Of a stretch of 41,765 nucleotides of DNA, positions 1,227 to 12,086 are shown piece after piece; position 1 is the first letter of the stretch; each line of letters begins with the position of its first letter. The notes beneath the pieces were generated by a model, which ran no database searches, was not told where the DNA came from, and saw only the letters and a program-made list of their open reading frames with translations. The translations under genes were made by a program, and so were the position numbers. The DNA comes from Planctomycetota bacterium. Its GTDB lineage: Bacteria; Planctomycetota; Phycisphaerae; WQYP01. The DNA lies in contig JAJYDU010000004.1 in NCBI GenBank assembly GCA_021790475.1, positions 1 to 41,765 on the forward strand, read 5' to 3'.

Positions 1227-2765
1227 ATGACTTCAATAATCCCCATATCCAGTCGCAGAATGATCGTAGGGGCGGTAGCTGCTCTTGGTCTTGCACTGGT
1301 ATTGGTGATAGTTATAGCTATGTTCACAGCGTCGCAAACCAGGTCGAAGCGGCTGGAGAAGGCAGCCAATAACGGAAATGCTGCTGCACAGTTTCGTTTG
1401 AGCCTCCGCTACGAGTATGGCCAAGGCGTTCCTCAGAGCTATCGCAAAGCGATGGTTTGGTGCCGCAAAGCGGCGTCGGCAGGCGACACAAACGCGATGA
1501 CCGCAATCGGCTGGCTCTACCAGCGCGGCCAAGGCGTGCCACGGAATTACCAGAAAGCGATGACATGGTACCGCAAAGCGGCGTCGGCAGGCGACACAAA
1601 CGCGATGACCATGATCGGTTGGCTCTACCAGCGCGGACAAGGCGTGCCACGAAACTACCAGAAGGCGATGGCATGGTACCGAAAGTCTGTGAACGGCGGC
1701 GATGTGGGAGCGATGTACGACATTGGCCTGTTATACGCGCATGGCCAAGGTGTCGCGCAGAGTTACGCGAAAGCCCTGACTTGTTACCGCAAAGCGGCGG
1801 CGGCGGATGTTTCCCAAGCGATGGGCGCCATCTCCACCCTTTATGAGCACGGTTGGGGGGTGCGGAAAAGCTACCAGAAGGCAATGATATGGTTGCGCAA
1901 GGCGGCGGCGGCAGGAAACGCCATAGCCATGTACAACATCGGGTGGCTGTACGAACACGGCAGAGGCGTTCCACGAAACTATCAGAAAGCGATGAACTGG
2001 TACCGCAAGTCTGCGGCCGGTGGCAGTAAACATGCAATGATGGGTATTGGCCGGCTGTATGCGCATGGGCTGGGGACGGGGCAAAACTACAATATGGCGA
2101 GGGTTTGGTTCCGCAAAGCGGCGGCGGCAGGCGATGTCCATGCGATATATATCATAGGTTATTTGTACGCGTATGGCAAAGGTGTTCCACGTAACTATCA
2201 GAAGGCGATGCGATGGCTCCGAAAGGCCGCCGCCGCAGGCGATGTCCAGGCGATGGAGGGCATAGGCAATTTGTACGCGTATGGCAAAGGTGTTCCACGT
2301 AACTATCAGAAGGCGATGCGATGGCTCCGAAAGGCCGCCGCCGCAGGCGATGTCCAAGCGATGTATGGCATCGGTTATTTGTACGCGTATGTCAAAGGTG
2401 TTCCACGAAACTATCGAAAGGCGATGGATTGGTACAAGAAGGCCGCAGCAGGTGGTAACGCATCCGCGATGAATAACATCGGAATGCTTTACTATCGTGG
2501 TTTGGATGTTCCGCGTAACTATCAGAAAGCGCTGGCGTGGTACCGCAAAGCGGCTTCGGCGGGTGATGCCGAAGCGATGGACAACATCGGCTGGTCTTAC
2601 GGGCATGGGCTGGGTGTCAAACGGGGCTATCATGAAACGATGGCGTGGTTCCGTAGAGCTGCCGCGGGTGGAAATACCGATGCGATGGGTAGCATTGGTT
2701 TTCGTAACCGTTCACGGGCAATAGTGGCGAACTTAGCCCATAAACGAGGGTTCCCGATAATATAA
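1227..2765 (+). CDS. Sel1-like repeat protein, N-terminal membrane anchor
   Basis: 512 residues. A GAGGGA ribosome-binding site sits 7 bases before the ATG. Residues about 12-34 are a single hydrophobic segment (anchor or uncleaved signal). From residue 45 there are twelve full 36-residue Sel1 repeats and the start of a thirteenth, each with the pattern A-A-x-A-G-D-x-x-A-M-x-x-I-G-x-L-Y followed by G-V-P-R-N-Y-Q-K-A-M-x-W-Y-R-K. Sel1 repeats form alpha-solenoids that scaffold protein-protein contacts. Repeats 2/3 and 8/9/10 are nearly identical at the DNA level, a sign of recent tandem duplication. Homology breaks inside repeat 13 at base 2704, exactly where a 152-bp terminal-inverted-repeat element begins; the last 20 codons and the stop come from that element. 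Confidence 0.88.
   Translation: MTSIIPISSRRMIVGAVAALGLALVLVIVIAMFTASQTRSKRLEKAANNGNAAAQFRLSLRYEYGQGVPQSYRKAMVWCRKAASAGDTNAMTAIGWLYQRGQGVPRNYQKAMTWYRKAASAGDTNAMTMIGWLYQRGQGVPRNYQKAMAWYRKSVNGGDVGAMYDIGLLYAHGQGVAQSYAKALTCYRKAAAADVSQAMGAISTLYEHGWGVRKSYQKAMIWLRKAAAAGNAIAMYNIGWLYEHGRGVPRNYQKAMNWYRKSAAGGSKHAMMGIGRLYAHGLGTGQNYNMARVWFRKAAAAGDVHAIYIIGYLYAYGKGVPRNYQKAMRWLRKAAAAGDVQAMEGIGNLYAYGKGVPRNYQKAMRWLRKAAAAGDVQAMYGIGYLYAYVKGVPRNYRKAMDWYKKAAAGGNASAMNNIGMLYYRGLDVPRNYQKALAWYRKAASAGDAEAMDNIGWSYGHGLGVKRGYHETMAWFRRAAAGGNTDAMGSIGFRNRSRAIVANLAHKRGFPII
1457..2560 (+). repeat. 108-bp tandem repeats inside the Sel1 gene
   Basis: The DNA repeats with a 108-base period, matching the 36-residue Sel1 unit. The 86 bases starting at 2163 recur unchanged at 2271, and the units around 1470-1570 and 1578-1680 are almost identical. 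Other units are more diverged. Confidence 0.85.
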
Positions 2766-4332: not shown

Positions 4333-4579
4333 CTTCACCTGTATATATTTACTACCGGATTCTGATCGCCGGAAGTTTAACTTTTCTTTTTCGCAACCAG
4401 CACGAGAAGCGCCAACTTTTGAAAACACAAGAATTTGTGCGCGGGAGATTGACACCTAGCAAACGTAATGGCATACTACAGTTTGAGTGATAAGGCCGCC
4501 CGTTCTGGCCGGCAAAAAACAAAGGATAGGTGTAGGTAATTACGCGCGAGCATTTTGCTCGCAGCGCAAGGAGAATTTT

Positions 4580-4765
4580 ATGAGCGACGACCAACTTCTT
4601 CGGGTGAAAGACGTGGCGGCCATTATGCAATGTTGCCAACGGCAGATCTGGCGCCTGGTGGAGCTGGGCAAGCTTCCCGGTCCCTTCCGACCATCGCCGC
4701 GAATGCCGCGGTGGCGACGGATTGATATTGAAAAATATATCGAGTCGCTCGCGAAAAAGAATTGA
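4580..4765 (+). CDS. Excisionase / AlpA-like helix-turn-helix protein
   Basis: 61 residues with AAGGAG 6 bases before the ATG, which decides the start over an upstream in-frame ATG at 4487. L-L-R-V-K-D-V-A-A-I-M followed by R-Q-I-W-R-L-V-E-L-G-K-L-P-G-P-F is the winged-helix pattern of MerR-type excisionases and AlpA regulators, and the C-terminal W-R-R-x-D-I-x-x-Y-I is typical of the wing and last helix. Such proteins bind near attachment sites, bend DNA and favour excision, or activate island genes. Its place upstream of replication genes in an integrase-bearing element fits this role. Confidence 0.8.
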   Translation: MSDDQLLRVKDVAAIMQCCQRQIWRLVELGKLPGPFRPSPRMPRWRRIDIEKYIESLAKKN

Positions 4766-4827: not shown

Positions 4828-6711
4828 ATGAGTTTATCCGCACCCCCGAAAAAAAGCAAGCATTCCGAATTGGAAGTTTTTAACCAGAAAATGGCCGCCT
4901 TGGCCGCCACCGCCGCGCCGCCGGAGAAAACCGCCGGCGAAGGCCAACCCGATGGCGCGGAGCAAGCGCCACAAGCTGACGCCCTGCTTGCATTGACGGA
5001 AAAAATGGAACTCTGGCATGATTCGGACGGCGACGGTTTTGCGACCCTTGAACAAGCCGGGCATAACGAGCACTGGCGGCTTAATTTAAAGCCTTTTCGC
5101 TACGCGCTCGCGAACCGATTTTGGTTGGAGCAAGGCAAAGCGCCCAGCGCGCAAGCGATGCAAAACGCCCTGGGCGTGCTGGAGGGTAAGGCGCGGTTTG
5201 AAGGTAAACAGCGCACTACCGCGGTACGGCTGGCGGAGGCGGACGGGACGATATATTTAGACGTGGCCAACGAAGCATGGCAGGTGATCGCCATCAGCGC
5301 CGCGGGCTGGAGCGTGAGCGAAAGCCGAAACTGCCCGATCAAATTCATCCGCCGTCCCGGCGAACTGGCGCTGCCGCTGCCGACGCGCGGCGGAAAATTG
5401 CGCGACCTGAAAGACACGCTCCGAATAAAATCAGACGATACATATATACTTGTCGCCGCGTGGCTGGTGGCGGCCCTGCGCCCCGGCAAACCAATCCCCA
5501 TATTAAACGTCGAGGGTGAGCAAGGTTCGGGTAAAAGTACGCTCTGTCGAATGCTAAAGTCGCTGCTAGATCCCAACGTGGCCCCCTTGCGGAGTTTGCC
5601 TCGCGACGAGCGAGATATGACGGTCGCGGCGCGGAGCTCGCTTATCGTGGGCTACGATAATTTATCCGGCCTGCCCCCCGCGATGAGCGATGCTTTGTGC
5701 CGATTGGCCACCGGCGCGGGCTTCGCTACTCGCGCTCTCTATACAGATGGAGATGAGTCTATATTTTCGGGCGTCCGGCCTGTCCTGCTCAATGGCATCG
5801 ACGCCATCGGAACGCGCGCTGATTTAATGGATAGGTCAATCATCATTACGATGCCTACTATCCCGGAGCTGGAGCGCGCCACGGAATCGTCCATCTGGCT
5901 GGAGTTTCAGGCCGCGCATCCGGGTCTGCTTGGCGCGATTTTTGACGCCGTAGTGCTGGCGCTGGCCAACCTGGAAAAGGTTGCCTTGCCGCGCTCACCC
6001 CGAATGGCGGATTTTGCGCAATTGGCGATTGCTGCGGAGCCCGCTTTAGAAATTCCCGAAGGTAATTTCGTAAAAATATACGAAGAGAATCGCCTAGAAG
6101 TTGGCTGCAACGCCATCGACTTTTCTCCGCCTATGTCCGCCCTGCTTGACTACCTAGACGTCACTGGTTCGTTCGAGGGAAGTCTTTCTGACCTTTTTGG
6201 CTTGCTGGAGGAACGCGCGGCCATTGGCGAAAGAAAGCCAGAAGGCTGGCCCAAGTCGCCGAACAGGCTAAGCTCCATTTTACGCCGTACTGTACCCGTC
6301 CTCCGGATGCGAGGCTATGCCGTTACGTTCTCCCGTTCTGCCGGGAGAGATCGTGGGCGGCGTGTAATGATAGAGAGGTTGGGCAAAGGATCGTCCGGAT
6401 CGTCCGGATCGTCCGAAACGTCGAAAAACCCACAAAATCAAACATTTTTGTCGGACGCAACTTCGGACGCAACTTCGGACGCACCCCCCCCAACCGTCCG
6501 CACCAAAACCCCCGCCAAATGCTGGTTTCGGACGATCCGGACGATCCGGACGATAAAACCGCTACCCATTCTGCACGGCCTCCATCAAAAGGTATCCGAT
6601 GGGACGAAAGGGCCACCGGAGGAACCGACGTATGAATGCAACCCACATTGTTCATCGCCTTACCACCGCCGGATACCGGCTGGAAGACAGAGGCGACAAG
6701 CTGCACATTGA
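4828..6711 (+). CDS. Replication ATPase/helicase of the element (SF3/AAA-like)
   Basis: 627 residues; AAAGGAT precedes the ATG. A Walker A motif G-E-Q-G-S-G-K-S-T lies at residues 230-238, followed by a Walker B-like hydrophobic strand ending Y-D-N at 276-278 and an M-D-R-S-I arginine-finger-like segment around 340. This matches the ATPase core of plasmid and phage replication proteins. Residues 1-60 are low complexity; about 60-200 form an unassigned N-terminal region. The last 110 residues are unusual: S-G-S-S-G-S-S, a triple S-D-A-T and R-T-I-R-T-I-R-T-I, all caused by repeat DNA at 6388-6554. The 3' end overlaps the next gene by 80 bases. It probably unwinds the element's origin together with the primase at 7170. 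Confidence 0.7.
   Translation: MSLSAPPKKSKHSELEVFNQKMAALAATAAPPEKTAGEGQPDGAEQAPQADALLALTEKMELWHDSDGDGFATLEQAGHNEHWRLNLKPFRYALANRFWLEQGKAPSAQAMQNALGVLEGKARFEGKQRTTAVRLAEADGTIYLDVANEAWQVIAISAAGWSVSESRNCPIKFIRRPGELALPLPTRGGKLRDLKDTLRIKSDDTYILVAAWLVAALRPGKPIPILNVEGEQGSGKSTLCRMLKSLLDPNVAPLRSLPRDERDMTVAARSSLIVGYDNLSGLPPAMSDALCRLATGAGFATRALYTDGDESIFSGVRPVLLNGIDAIGTRADLMDRSIIITMPTIPELERATESSIWLEFQAAHPGLLGAIFDAVVLALANLEKVALPRSPRMADFAQLAIAAEPALEIPEGNFVKIYEENRLEVGCNAIDFSPPMSALLDYLDVTGSFEGSLSDLFGLLEERAAIGERKPEGWPKSPNRLSSILRRTVPVLRMRGYAVTFSRSAGRDRGRRVMIERLGKGSSGSSGSSETSKNPQNQTFLSDATSDATSDAPPPTVRTKTPAKCWFRTIRTIRTIKPLPILHGLHQKVSDGTKGPPEEPTYECNPHCSSPYHRRIPAGRQRRQAAH
6388..6554. repeat. Perfect 30-bp inverted repeat built of 9-bp units around a 12-bp triple repeat
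   Basis: The left arm (6390-6419) holds three direct copies of a 9-base unit, TCGTCCGGA or TCGTCCGAA. The right arm (6525-6554) is its exact reverse complement over all 30 bases. Between them are three direct copies of TCGGACGCAACT (the third diverging after TCGGACGCA) at 6451-6486. The core GTCCG/CGGAC therefore occurs nine times in about 165 bases. This layout resembles an iteron origin or a multi-site operator, and it lies inside the coding end of the replication ATPase. Confidence 0.8.
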
Positions 6712-7099
6712 GCCTTCCCCGCCCGCCGAGATTTTAGAAGAACTGCGACGGTTCAAGCCGCAAATCCTCTCCCTGCTCCGGATGGGCACGGAAACTCTAC
6801 AACTGGACTACCGGAGCGTGGCGTGGCTGGCCCTTCTCCAGATAGAACCGGACGCCATTACCCGCCAGACGGTATGGGATGCCGCGGAGGCGGAAGAAAG
6901 AAAATGGGCCTTTCTTGTCCGGGAACACGGCTACCCGGCAGGCTGGTTCGTGTTTGGATACGTGGATGATTTTCTCCGGAAACACCGCCGGAAGGGAATC
7001 GCACTGGAAATCGTGCCCGTCGAAGAGCGAATTGCCGCCTGGTGGCTGGTGGATGCCCCCGACGAACAGAATAACAGCAAGGTAAAGCAGGATGCTTAA
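6632..7099 (+). CDS. TubC N-terminal docking-domain-like protein
   Basis: 155 residues; GGAGGA lies about 8 bases before the ATG and selects this start over an in-frame ATG at 6599. The first 48 residues (I-V-H-R-L-T-T-A-G-Y-R-L-E, then L-H-I-E-P, then E-E-L-R-R-F-K-P-Q-I-L-S-L-L) match the small TubC-N docking fold, which also appears in many plasmid and island proteins beside primases. The remainder (W-D-A-A-E-A-E-E-R-K-W and a V-D-D-F-L-R-K-H helix) is unassigned. It overlaps the ATPase gene and precedes the primase by 70 bases, so it may be a replication accessory or adaptor protein. Confidence 0.6.
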   Translation: MNATHIVHRLTTAGYRLEDRGDKLHIEPSPPAEILEELRRFKPQILSLLRMGTETLQLDYRSVAWLALLQIEPDAITRQTVWDAAEAEERKWAFLVREHGYPAGWFVFGYVDDFLRKHRRKGIALEIVPVEERIAAWWLVDAPDEQNNSKVKQDA

Positions 7100-7169
7100 C
7101 TTGCGTAAATTGCGGATGTTGCGAAAAAAAACATAATCCGCCGCAATAACTGAAACATGGAGTTAGAGC

Positions 7170-8147
7170 ATGGACTTTCCCGCTTTCATAAAGTTGGTTG
7201 AGAGTAAAACAGGACGCCCGATGAAGCAATATGGCGTACGATGGAAGGGCCATTGCCCCGCCCACGACGACCAAAGCCCTTCCTTTTCCTGCTGGCTGGC
7301 CGATGATGGATGGATCTGCGTAAATTGCTTTGCCGGCTGCACCACCCGCCAGATTTACAAAGCCCTGGAAGTCGAAAAAAAGGACATGGGGCCGCCGCTG
7401 CGCCCTGGTATGAGCCGCACCGCCGCGGCCCGGCCCGCGACACCATCGGCCCCGCATTCTGCGAATAAAAACGGGCATCCCGGCAGGAATAAACCAGACT
7501 ACCCGAATGCCCGCGCGGCAGTTGATGCTGTCGCCGCCCTGCTCCGGCGGCAGCATCCCGAAATCGAGCGGACGAATTGCTTCCGTTATTGCACCGCCGA
7601 TGCGAAACTGTACGCGGCGGTAATTCGCTTCCGGAATCCGAAAACTTTTCGGCCAATAGCACGTGCGGCGGATGGGAAATGGCAAATAGGTGATCCTCCG
7701 ATTCTGATATGGTTTCCGTATCACGCCGAACGCCTGGGCAACGCGAAAACTGTTCACGTCCCCGAAGGGGAAAAGTGCGTGTTAGCGTTGGAAAAGTATG
7801 GCCTTGTTGCAACAACATCCGCCCACGGCGCACAATGCGCCGACAAGACCGACTGGAAGATACTTTCGGGCAAAAACATTTATCTCTGGCCCGACCGTGA
7901 TGGCCCCGGCGAAGGATACATTTTCGACGTTTGGCTGCATTTGCGCGCGATATGCCCGCAAATCAAGGTGGTACGCCTGCCTGGTCTGCCCGAAGGCGGC
8001 GATATATGCGACTGGCTGAAACAGCACAAACCGTGGACGGAGGATGAAATAAAGGCCGCGTTGGCCGAAGAGATAGACTTAGCGAAAACCTACCCATCCC
8101 CACCGCCGGCCCCGCCGCCCGATTCGGCGGAAGTGGAAAATACGTAA
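7170..8147 (+). CDS. DNA primase, CHC2-type zinc finger plus Toprim-like domain
   Basis: 325 residues; GGAG before the ATG. The N-terminus carries the CHC2 primase zinc site, C29-P-x-H32 and C50-V-N-C53, with a fourth nearby C57. After a Pro/Ala-rich linker (about 80-110), a Toprim-like domain follows: E199 in V-P-E-G-E and the D242-R-D244 pair in W-P-D-R-D-G, the metal-binding residues of the fold. C-terminal W-L-K-Q-H and an acidic helix resemble primase-helicase ends, and a proline-rich tail closes the protein. It would synthesise RNA primers for the element's replication, with the ATPase at 4828 acting as helicase. It is shorter than cellular DnaG, as expected for mobile-element primases. 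Confidence 0.82.
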   Translation: MDFPAFIKLVESKTGRPMKQYGVRWKGHCPAHDDQSPSFSCWLADDGWICVNCFAGCTTRQIYKALEVEKKDMGPPLRPGMSRTAAARPATPSAPHSANKNGHPGRNKPDYPNARAAVDAVAALLRRQHPEIERTNCFRYCTADAKLYAAVIRFRNPKTFRPIARAADGKWQIGDPPILIWFPYHAERLGNAKTVHVPEGEKCVLALEKYGLVATTSAHGAQCADKTDWKILSGKNIYLWPDRDGPGEGYIFDVWLHLRAICPQIKVVRLPGLPEGGDICDWLKQHKPWTEDEIKAALAEEIDLAKTYPSPPPAPPPDSAEVENT

Positions 8148-8170: not shown

Positions 8171-8494
8171 ATGGGAAAAGATATTGAATACCAGTTGCGG
8201 CTGACGGTTGATGAAGCCGACATTCACCTGCCCCGAATAGCCGCGTCCGCGGGCATAGAAGTGGCGGATTTACAGGATTTTTTGTGGCACAATAAAAGCC
8301 TGACGCTGTCCCAAGCCGCGCGGCTGGCCGAATACCTTGGGTTTGAGTTACGCCCCCGCCGCACAAAAGATAAAACCCACAATGAAATTATGCGGGAAGC
8401 GAATATTGTCCTTGGCCGGAAAAACCTGATCTCGAATGCCCGCAGCCTGGCTATTCGCGCTTTAACCAAAGAGAGAGGGCCATATTACTGCTAG
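8171..8494 (+). CDS. Small helix-turn-helix protein (XRE-like)
   Basis: 107 residues; GGAGAGAGAG before the ATG. Residues about 40-62 (F-L-W-H-N-K-S-L-T-L-S-Q-A-A-R-L-A-E-Y-L-G-F) read as the second half of an XRE-type helix-turn-helix, where the usual order is a short recognition helix followed by L-x-x-L-A-x-x-L-G. The first 35 residues look like a separate small strand-helix unit. It is likely a DNA-binding regulator of the element. It starts 23 bases after the primase, so the two are probably in one transcript. Confidence 0.5.
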   Translation: MGKDIEYQLRLTVDEADIHLPRIAASAGIEVADLQDFLWHNKSLTLSQAARLAEYLGFELRPRRTKDKTHNEIMREANIVLGRKNLISNARSLAIRALTKERGPYYC

Positions 8495-9483: not shown

Positions 9484-10803
9484 ATGGCCAGTATTTCCTC
9501 TTCTGGTAACGGGCGAAGACTTATTCAATTCGTCGACAAAGACGGTATACGCAAGACCGTCCGGCTGGGGAAAATCAGCAAAAAGCAGGCGGAAAGTTTC
9601 CGCGTCATGGTCGAATCGCTGGTTACGGCAAGCGTTCTTGGCGAACCGGAAGCCTTGGACAACGCTACGGCACAATGGCTGGCCGGACTGGACGACCGGC
9701 TGTACGCCCGCGTGGCCGCCGTGGGACTGGTCAAGCCGCGCGCCGCAACACTCGGTATGGGCATTGCGGCGTTTGTTGAGAGCTTTTTGGCGGCCCGTCC
9801 GGAATACAAGCCTTTAACCATCGACAACGTCAATCAGGCACGCCACTATCTTATAGAACACTTCGGCAACCGTGATATGAGAACCATCACTGCCGCCGAC
9901 GCCGAAGACTTTCGATTGAGTCTTGTAAAGTCCGGTCTGGCGGAAGCGACGTACCGCCGCCACCTGGGCCGATGCCGCCAGCTTTTCAAGGCGGCCATCA
10001 AACGTGGCATCGTCAAGGGCCAAAACCCTTTTGACGACATGGCCGTTACCGCGCGAGCGAACAAAGAGAGGCAGCGCTTTGTGAGCCGGGCGGACGTGGA
10101 CAAGCTTATCGCCGCCGCCCCGGATGCCCAATGGCGGCTCATCATTGCCTTGAGCCGCTACGGCGGCATACGGACGCCAAGCGAAACGCTGGCGCTCAAG
10201 TGGACGGACGTAAACTGGGAGCAGCGCCGCCTTCGCATCCCATCGCCGAAAACCGAACGCTACGAGGGCGGCGACTGCCGGTATATCCCGCTTTTCCCGG
10301 AGCTTGACCGGCCATTGCATGACTGCTTCGAGCTAGCCGAGCCGGGCGAAGAGTATGTGATTAACAGGCATCGTAGCATGTCCCGCAATCTGGGGACGCA
10401 GCTGCGCCGGATTGCCCTGCGGGCCGGGCTGGAGCCGTGGCCAAAACCATTCCACAACATGCGGGCTTCCCGGCAAACCGAACTGGCCGAGTCCTTCCCA
10501 ATACACGTGGTCTGCTCTTGGATAGGCAATAGCCGGGCGGTAGCACAAGAGCATTACTTGACGGTTACGGACGCGCACTTCGCCAGGGCGATTCAACCGC
10601 TGGCGGAAAGCGCTGCGAAAAGCGCTGCAGCAGGTGGCGGAATTGGCGAGAATGGCGGCGACACGGAATCGGCCAACCCTTCAGAATTGCTTGCTATTCA
10701 AGGTAATTCGCTTACATGCACAGACGGACATAACTACGATCCAGCCTTTCTACGGGTTCGTTCCAGCCAGCCGGTATCAACGCGTGCCTGCAGAAAGTCC
10801 TGA
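9484..10803 (+). CDS. Tyrosine recombinase / integrase (C-terminus altered by integration)
   Basis: 439 residues; GGAAAGG precedes the ATG. An N-terminal arm-binding region and a SAM-like core-binding domain (about 95-180) precede the catalytic domain with R230 (in G-G-I-R-T), K256, H324-x-x-R327 (H-N-M-R), W346 and Y358 (in E-H-Y-L), so the full tyrosine recombinase set is present. The domain ends near 380. Codons up to V425 belong to the element; from about 10758 the frame runs into the accC 3' end and the last 14 codons are host DNA, overlapping accC tail to tail. The original tail is probably the 65 codons at 2881-3078. It would catalyse integration and, with the Xis-like protein, excision. 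Confidence 0.9.
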
Positions 10804-12086
10804 TCGCTCATGATCTGGCGATGCAGGGGAATGGTGGTTTTGACCGGCCCGGCGCGAAATTCCTCCAGCGCCCGGCGCATGGTGGCGATGGCCTGCGCCC
10901 GCGTGGGCCGATGCACGATAAGTTTGCCGATCATGGAGTCGTAATTCGGGCCGATGCGGTAATTTTGGTGGGCATGGGTATCGACTCGGACGCCGGGACC
11001 GCCGGGCACGGCGAATTCCTCCAGCACCCCGGGACAGGGAACAAAGCCGCGCTCGGGGTCTTCAACGTTGATGCGACACTCGATGGCGGCGCCGTTGCAG
11101 CGGGCGTCCTGCTGGTCGAGGTCAAGCTTTTCGCCGGAAGCGATGCGCAGTTGCCACTGAATGATATCCTGGCCGGTGACCTCTTCGGTGACCGGGTGTT
11201 CCACCTGAATGCGCGTGTTGACTTCCAGGAAATAAAACTTTTTCTGCCTGTCCATAATGAATTCCACCGTGGCGGCGGAGTAATAGCCGGCGGCGTTGGC
11301 CAGACGCACCGCGGACTCGCAAATCTGCCGGCGGGTTTCGTCATCCAGGATCGGACAGGGCGACTCTTCGATGAGTTTCTGATGGCGGCGCTGAATGGTG
11401 CAGTCGCGTTCGAAAAGGTGTATGACTTTTCCATACTTGTCGCCGAGAATCTGTACCTCCACGTGCCGCGGCTCCTCGTGGTATTTCTCTATGAAGACGG
11501 TGGAATCCTTAAAGGCGGCTTCGGCCTCGGCCTGGGCGGCCTTGAGGGAGCCTTTGAGACTGATGTCGTTATGGGCGACGCGCATGCCGCGCCCGCCGCC
11601 GCCGCCGGAGGCCTTGATAATGACCGGGTATCCGATTTTTCGGGCTACCTCCACGGCCTCTTTTTCCGATTTCACAGGCCCGTCGCTGCCGGGAGTCAGA
11701 GGAACCTTGCACTGGCGAGCCAGATTGCGGGAGGCCAGCTTGGAGCCGAGCATTTTCATGGATTCCACGGACGGGCCGATGAATTCGATCTTGCAGCTTC
11801 GGCATATTTCGGCGAAATGGGCGTTCTCGGACAGAAATCCGTAACCGGGGTGAATGGCCTGAACATCGGCCACTTCCGCGGCGGAAATGATGCGGGGGAT
11901 GTTCAGATAGCTTTCACCCGCCGGGGCTGGGCCGATGCAGATGGCTTCGTCGGCCAGCTGGAGATAAGCGGCATCGCGATCAGCCTCGGAATAGACGGCA
12001 ACGGCTTCGACCCCCAGTTCCCGGCAGGTACGAATGATGCGCAGGGCTATTTCACCACGATTGGCAACGAGAATTCGAGAGAACAT
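10734..12086 (-). CDS. accC: Biotin carboxylase subunit of acetyl-CoA carboxylase
   Basis: 450 residues, the usual length. AGAGGA lies before the ATG. The N-terminal [12 protein letters not shown] fold opens the protein; the ATP-grasp domain has the glycine-rich [11 protein letters not shown] loop near residue 160; [14 protein letters not shown] carries the metal and catalytic residues near 290. The enzyme carboxylates the biotin on AccB using bicarbonate and ATP, the first half of malonyl-CoA synthesis. It lies downstream of accB with a 47-base gap that contains a GTAACCGTTCACGGG-type repeat. The last four codons after T-R-R-K may derive from, or have been changed by, insertion of the integrative element. 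Confidence 0.96.
10748..10757. other. Putative attR core inside the 3' ends of int and accC
   Basis: TTCTACGGGT identical to 2870-2879 and in the same integrase codon phase (x-L-R-V) at both sites. It lies in the last codons of accC on the opposite strand, so insertion replaces only the extreme accC C-terminus. Confidence 0.5.

Follow-up and report, generated by a model that had tools for sequence, protein, structure and literature searches.

Which feature is being maintained where a perfect inverted repeat lies inside the coding tail of a predicted replication gene: the peptide, a hairpin, or a set of protein-binding sites in the DNA? We addressed this question for a Planctomycetota locus, using a stretch of 41,765 nt (the window, to which the coordinates below refer unless another locus is named). 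The repeat is found toward the 3' end of an ATPase gene and is composed of short units in both orientations, which are arranged as follows.

4828-6711, plus strand: gene of the putative initiator ATPase, 627 aa, with a P-loop near residue 230 and a D5/SF3-like fold (AlphaFold2, Foldseek)
6388-6416, plus strand: outer forward cluster (F3), three 9-bp iterons with the core CGTCCG at 6392, 6401, and 6410 (repeat calls; position and 9/9 spacing shared with relatives)
6417-6450, no strand: spacer separating F3 from the inner reverse cluster, richer in A+T, a candidate unwinding region judging from its sequence
6451-6486, minus strand: inner reverse cluster, three 12-bp units TCGGACGCAACT with the core CGGACG (repeat calls; inner reverse units at 11-12 bp spacing also in relatives)
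6495-6501, plus strand: single inner forward unit CGTCCGC (one or more inner forward units also in relatives)
6528-6554, minus strand: outer reverse cluster (R3), three 9-bp iterons, exact reverse complement of the F3 arm (repeat calls)

Each arm is 30 nt long (6390-6419 and 6525-6554); the two are 100% complementary and are separated by 105 nt. Tandem Repeats Finder called arrays with a 9-bp period at 6388-6415 and 6529-6554 and one with a 12-bp period at 6451-6483. The initial annotation had described a perfect 30-bp inverted repeat with 9-bp units on its arms and three 12-bp units in between, all of which is borne out by the sequence. The repetition of a GTCCG/CGGAC core was also recovered, but the nine copies counted at that stage are actually ten, in the order +++ --- + ---: GTCCG starts at 6393, 6402, and 6411, with a lone copy at 6496 that had been overlooked, and CGGAC starts at 6452, 6464, 6476, 6529, 6538, and 6547. 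All ten units lie within the open reading frame (ORF), in its 3' coding tail, where the repeats encode GSSGSSGSS, SDATSDATSDA, and RTIRTIRTI; the translation of the ORF agrees with the earlier statement that repeats within the ATPase gene give rise to low-complexity SGSSGSS and RTIRTIRTI peptides. The region 6301-6620 holds 10 copies of one 8-mer (at most one mismatch), whereas 300 dinucleotide shuffles averaged 4.1 copies and never exceeded 6, and the 320-bp segments with the highest copy number in the whole 41.8 kb are those covering the array. No second copy of the array was present elsewhere in the genome.

The AlphaFold2 model of the ATPase (mean pLDDT of 75.7, with a confident core) shows a C-terminal helix-helix-helix-strand-strand unit at residues ~448-517, which we read as a winged helix, followed by the repeat-encoded tail (residues 521-627), which is predicted to be disordered (pLDDT of about 31). 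Comparison of this model with solved structures using Foldseek placed NrS-1 (E = 3e-8), the ASFV primase-polymerase, the SaPI5 Rep primase-helicase (7ola; TM 0.42/0.58), and poxvirus D5/E5 on top, with probability 1.00. At the sequence level, the ATPase reached the cutoff of no Pfam or NCBIfam family, and a search of the sequences of solved structures returned only generic P-loop proteins. The Pfam profiles D5_N, Primase_Cterm, and DUF927 gave no match to the ATPase at E ≤ 5, nor to its relatives at E ≤ 0.1. A fold match without a match to these three profiles points to a protein with a predicted D5/SF3 initiator-helicase-like fold that belongs to a separate sequence family.

The genes downstream of the ATPase are the following.

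6632-7099, plus strand: gene of a TubC_N-like small protein, the conserved partner of this slot (Pfam TubC_N below threshold, E = 0.078; relatives in sister elements)
7170-8147, plus strand: DnaG-type primase gene, with a CHC2 zinc ribbon and a TOPRIM-like region (domain searches)
8171-8494: possible HTH protein gene (sub-threshold matches only)
9484-10803, plus strand: the element's tyrosine integrase, overlapping the recombination junction near 10745 at its 3' end

The start at 6632 is that of an ATG preceded by AGGA and is a predicted one. A genome of the same genus is collinear with the window only from 10745 onward, near where a host ORF on the minus strand (10734-12086) ends, and the sequence to the left therefore belongs to an integrated element. 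The left end of this element is outside the window, which starts at the contig start. In the interval between the TubC_N-like and primase genes (7099-7155), three copies of TTGCG are spaced at exactly 9 bp, with an A-run and a reversed CGCAA after them; this may be an operator or another iteron-like site. One relative (L009) has a similar TTGCG/TTGAAAC run after its ATPase gene. The left part of the window (1227-2765) encodes a Sel1-like repeat protein, named by eye, with 108-bp DNA repeats.

Members of the ATPase family were found by tblastn on plasmids of the archaeon Methanothrix and of Methylobacterium, Candidatus Chlorohelix, Stanieria, and Streptomyces, as well as in a Microbacterium phage. 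A genome scan with the single ATPase protein as the query retrieved no relatives; alignment-based scans gave 103 and 155 relatives in viral contigs (80 kept from each) and at least 333 in genomes (80 kept). The genome relatives are from Bacillota, Planctomycetota, Alphaproteobacteria, delta-proteobacteria, Nitrospirota, Chloroflexota, Acidobacteriota, Actinomycetota, Hydrogenedentota, Atribacterota, and others. In a sample of 129 nonredundant loci from plasmids, viral contigs, and genomes, we searched both strands for the best 8-mer (at most one mismatch) in a stretch that starts where the conserved domain ends and runs 350 bp beyond the stop codon, and compared the copy number of this 8-mer with dinucleotide shuffles. 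Mismatched 8-mers were chosen because exact 7-mer counts missed copies in degenerate arrays.

A strong array of 7-9 bp repeats (z ≥ 4) was found at the 3' end of the ATPase family gene in 49 of the 129 loci. The same threshold was reached in only 1 of 129 stretches of equal length within the gene body, 3 of 106 downstream stretches, and 2 of 248 3' ends of other long ORFs in those loci. When the whole loci were scanned with a sliding segment, 71 of the 89 strong segments lay within 500 bp of the end of the ATPase gene. The link between an iteron array and the replication ATPase gene, first proposed from the window alone, thus holds across phyla, with arrays at the 3' end of this gene and not at the controls. 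In 69 of the 129 loci, z was below 3 at this end, and some of these have an array elsewhere. Relatives that replicate while lacking the whole segment had been named as a case that would count against the proposal, and this is partly what we see, since about half of the family loci have no array at this place, including a viral-contig clade. The arrangement of sites is shared by relatives in about ten bacterial phyla and thus marks a large and unnamed family of what are very probably self-contained units of replication.

Members of that viral-contig clade (L048-L101 and relatives, from IMG/VR), which share the tail motif QKGRSRISIVR, keep the ATPase gene without an array at its 3' end and may have their origin at another site. 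On the Methanothrix plasmid pH6Ac (L012), 9-bp direct repeats GGAGTACAT at positions 4407-4428 and 4565-4587 of the locus flank a GA-rich stretch in the long C-terminal tail, and TGTCC/TTGTCA runs come right after the stop codon.

After refinement, 58 arrays were described. The typical array, which the window resembles, reads +(9)+(9)+ gap -(11-12)-(about 20)+ gap -(9)-(9)-, with spacings in bp, and opposed triples at 8-10 bp spacing were present in 28 of the 58. The lengths of the gaps before and after rise and fall together (r = 0.60), differing by at most 2 bp in 12 of 25 cases (for example, 58/58, 71/71, 56/56, and 33/33). The units themselves are lineage specific (CGTCCG, GCGTCAC, ACCGTCA, AGCGTCC, CGTGGGAA, CTACACC, and GGTGAAC), mostly built around CGTC. 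The A+T content of the two gaps across the family was 0.41 and 0.45, a slight rise over the 0.40 of the gene body, with 17 of 28 and 20 of 28 gaps above the body. A polypurine tract, considered as a further conserved part of the array, was discarded, having p ≤ 0.05 in only 14 of 58 arrays and being absent in the window. Of the structure originally described, it is the oriented units F3-R-F-R3 that are conserved, whereas the long perfect inverted repeat is not, the spacers elsewhere matching at near-chance level. We found no description of this recurring layout in the literature searched. The units GGTGAAC of one relative (L042) appear similar to the iterons of satellite phage P4, which would hint at a link between both origin types.

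We propose that the array is, in all likelihood, the replication origin of the integrated mobile element, or at least the initiator-binding part of it, and that its iterons are bound by the winged helix of the ATPase. Iteron binding by the ATPase, unwinding, a bidirectional start, and origin activity itself are steps that we infer. The ATPase would act as a D5/SF3-type self-loading initiator helicase, whose C-terminal winged helix would bind the 7-9 bp iterons. The opposed triples F3 and R3, with their 9-bp spacing, would, together with the inner units, place two oligomers facing in opposite directions; the DNA separating them would open, and the element's own DnaG-type primase would then prime. 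With the array in the 3' coding sequence of the initiator, the two would make up a self-contained initiator-origin cassette, and the tail peptide would be a by-product. Why the array should be inside the gene is a matter of conjecture: compactness may be the reason, or the keeping of specificity and origin together in transfer. GC skew did not place the origin, as the skew extremes of three plasmids were not at the array.

Iterons often double as control sites, and the array might instead be a partition site (centromere) for plasmid segregation or an autoregulatory operator repressing the operon, with no part in initiation. A ParA gene does follow the array in a Streptomyces plasmid (L018), but of the 58 array loci only 1 has a ParA-type motif nearby, and the partition site was rejected on this count. 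The constant neighbor of the arrays is the helicase, and they are located at the end of a gene and not at its start. We regard both functions as very unlikely replacements for initiation. Autoregulation may nevertheless come on top of it.

A second alternative, to which we also give little credence, is that the 30-bp inverted repeat works as a stem-loop in RNA or DNA, as an attenuator, a processing site, or an origin of the pRN1 type, in which case pairing would matter and not the binding of units. The predicted stem of the window is stable (-79 kcal/mol; RNA fold z = -7.65), its spacers match between the arms as well (6/6), and plasmid pRN1 needs for its replication a stem-loop just downstream of its SF3-helicase replicase gene (PMC4234260). 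The pRN1-type archaeal plasmids resemble the window in having an SF3 helicase with a winged helix and an inverted-repeat element just 3' of the replicase gene, but their proposed origin is a 100-nt stem-loop whose sequence is not conserved, while here the cores are conserved and the pairing of the spacers is not. When the outer arms were compared across relatives, the unit cores were 90% identical and the spacers matched at near-chance level (32/101), which indicates that protein-binding sites are conserved and not a hairpin. Moreover, the inner units and their spacing are kept despite making no contribution to the stem, and many arrays are situated past the stop codon. The hairpin was thus rejected as the selected feature at the level of the family, a rejection that does not extend to the window taken alone. 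Its identical spacers are an exception that may result from recent homogenization. Judging from these comparisons of sequences, the inverted repeat arises mostly because one unit occurs in both directions.

Selection of the low-complexity tail as a flexible linker, with the DNA repeats arising secondarily from codon repeats or replication slippage, has a negligible chance of being right: a 9-bp tandem unit does equal three codons and disorder is predicted for the tail, but units in all reading frames encode many different peptides among the arrays, similar layouts are found after stop codons, and slippage would not give reverse-oriented copies and a dyad-like layout. In the coding arrays, copies per reading frame numbered 48/79/79 in the forward and 59/72/110 in the reverse direction, and in 40 of 43 of these arrays copies of the same direction occupy more than one frame, a mixing by which peptide selection was rejected. 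The encoded repeats vary by locus (GSSGSS, PSAPSA, TVGTVG, SVQSVQ, DGADGA, RTIRTI, etc.), and 9 bp is the commonest spacing both in coding arrays (153 of 224 close pairs) and in post-stop arrays (27 of 66). The frame mixing, the different tripeptides, and the predicted disorder support the view of the initial annotation that the DNA is selected rather than the peptide. Among the relatives, no case of a kept peptide with recoded DNA was seen.

The origin reading is also addressed by loci in which the initiator differs. Relatives of the TubC_N-like gene follow a different ATPase in two sister elements, one in a same-genus genome (L277, in G001) and the other on another contig of the window's own genome (L276). 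This sister-element ATPase, of the GPSTSGKS type, looks unrelated and gave only PHROG matches of unknown function. In the same slot, arrays of the unit GCCGAAA are found at 4069-4279 of L277 (G001:C1), with 11 copies (0/300 shuffles), and at 3958-4152 of L276 (G000:C94), with 7 copies (6/300 shuffles). The sister elements thus have another ATPase with its own array beside the same neighbor, so that initiator and array differ together, suggesting that the rule of an array at the initiator's end extends to another uncharted initiator family. Within the family of the window's ATPase, we used the 32 arrays in which CGTC is followed by A or C. The winged-helix columns were more associated with this base than the rest of the protein (Mann-Whitney test, P about 0.01, in an analysis that ignores phylogeny and is uncorrected for it); of the 35 top-decile columns, 12 belong to the winged helix (51 columns in all), residues 503-508 and 488 standing out. 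We take this apparent association between winged helix and iteron base as a lead.

How does the proposed origin compare with known ones? In the published description (PMC7581432), SaPI Rep and SCCmec Cch2 are helicases that load themselves and, through their C-terminal domain, bind iterons situated immediately 3' of their genes. Their systems share with the window a D5/SF3-like self-loading initiator helicase with a C-terminal DNA-binding domain (predicted in the window), a primase nearby, an integrative element, and an initiator gene with short iterons at its 3' end. They differ in that their iterons are intergenic, while the window array lies within the coding tail and has the recurring F3-R-F-R3 layout, and in that sequence profiles tie the window ATPase to no known family. 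The placement outside the gene does occur in some of the relatives, where the array comes after the stop codon, and not in the window, with its ten units in the ORF. In phage lambda, the iterons are inside the initiator gene O (PMC7466680), where they likewise specify extra amino acids; however, lambda O is not a helicase, and its iterons are each an inverted repeat, located mid-gene, with no opposed triples. In the Streptomyces theta plasmids pFP11 and pWTY27, RepA is reported to bind an iteron region with direct and inverted short repeats (PMC3583192). pFP11 encodes a member of the ATPase family (33% identity), likely the RepA tested for iteron binding, and has an array in the order +++--+--- about 0.55 kb downstream; unlike in the window, the iterons of these two plasmids are noncoding and the neighboring primase is of the prim-pol and not of the DnaG type. 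By analogy, the best reading is that the window system would work like the SaPI origin, with the gene-internal position of lambda.

The origins of small integrative elements are mostly unmapped, and a recurring layout at a fixed place would make the origin and the recognition site of the initiator predictable from sequence in many elements, across phyla. With somewhat more hope than doubt, we extend the proposal to the whole unnamed family of D5-like initiators, found in about ten bacterial phyla and with a relative on an archaeal plasmid: its origin would be a standard cassette, F3-R-F-R3, written into the final codons of the gene for the initiator, the specificities of initiator and origin would always be transferred jointly, and iteron sequence and winged-helix residues would covary. 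If this covariation is true, the recognition code would be readable from sequence, and dozens of natural protein-DNA pairs would provide material for learning how winged helices recognize DNA. The family is also a test case between two published ideas on SF3-helicase origins, stem-loop recognition and unit-by-unit binding, and its compact initiator-origin pairs may serve as vectors for poorly tractable bacteria.
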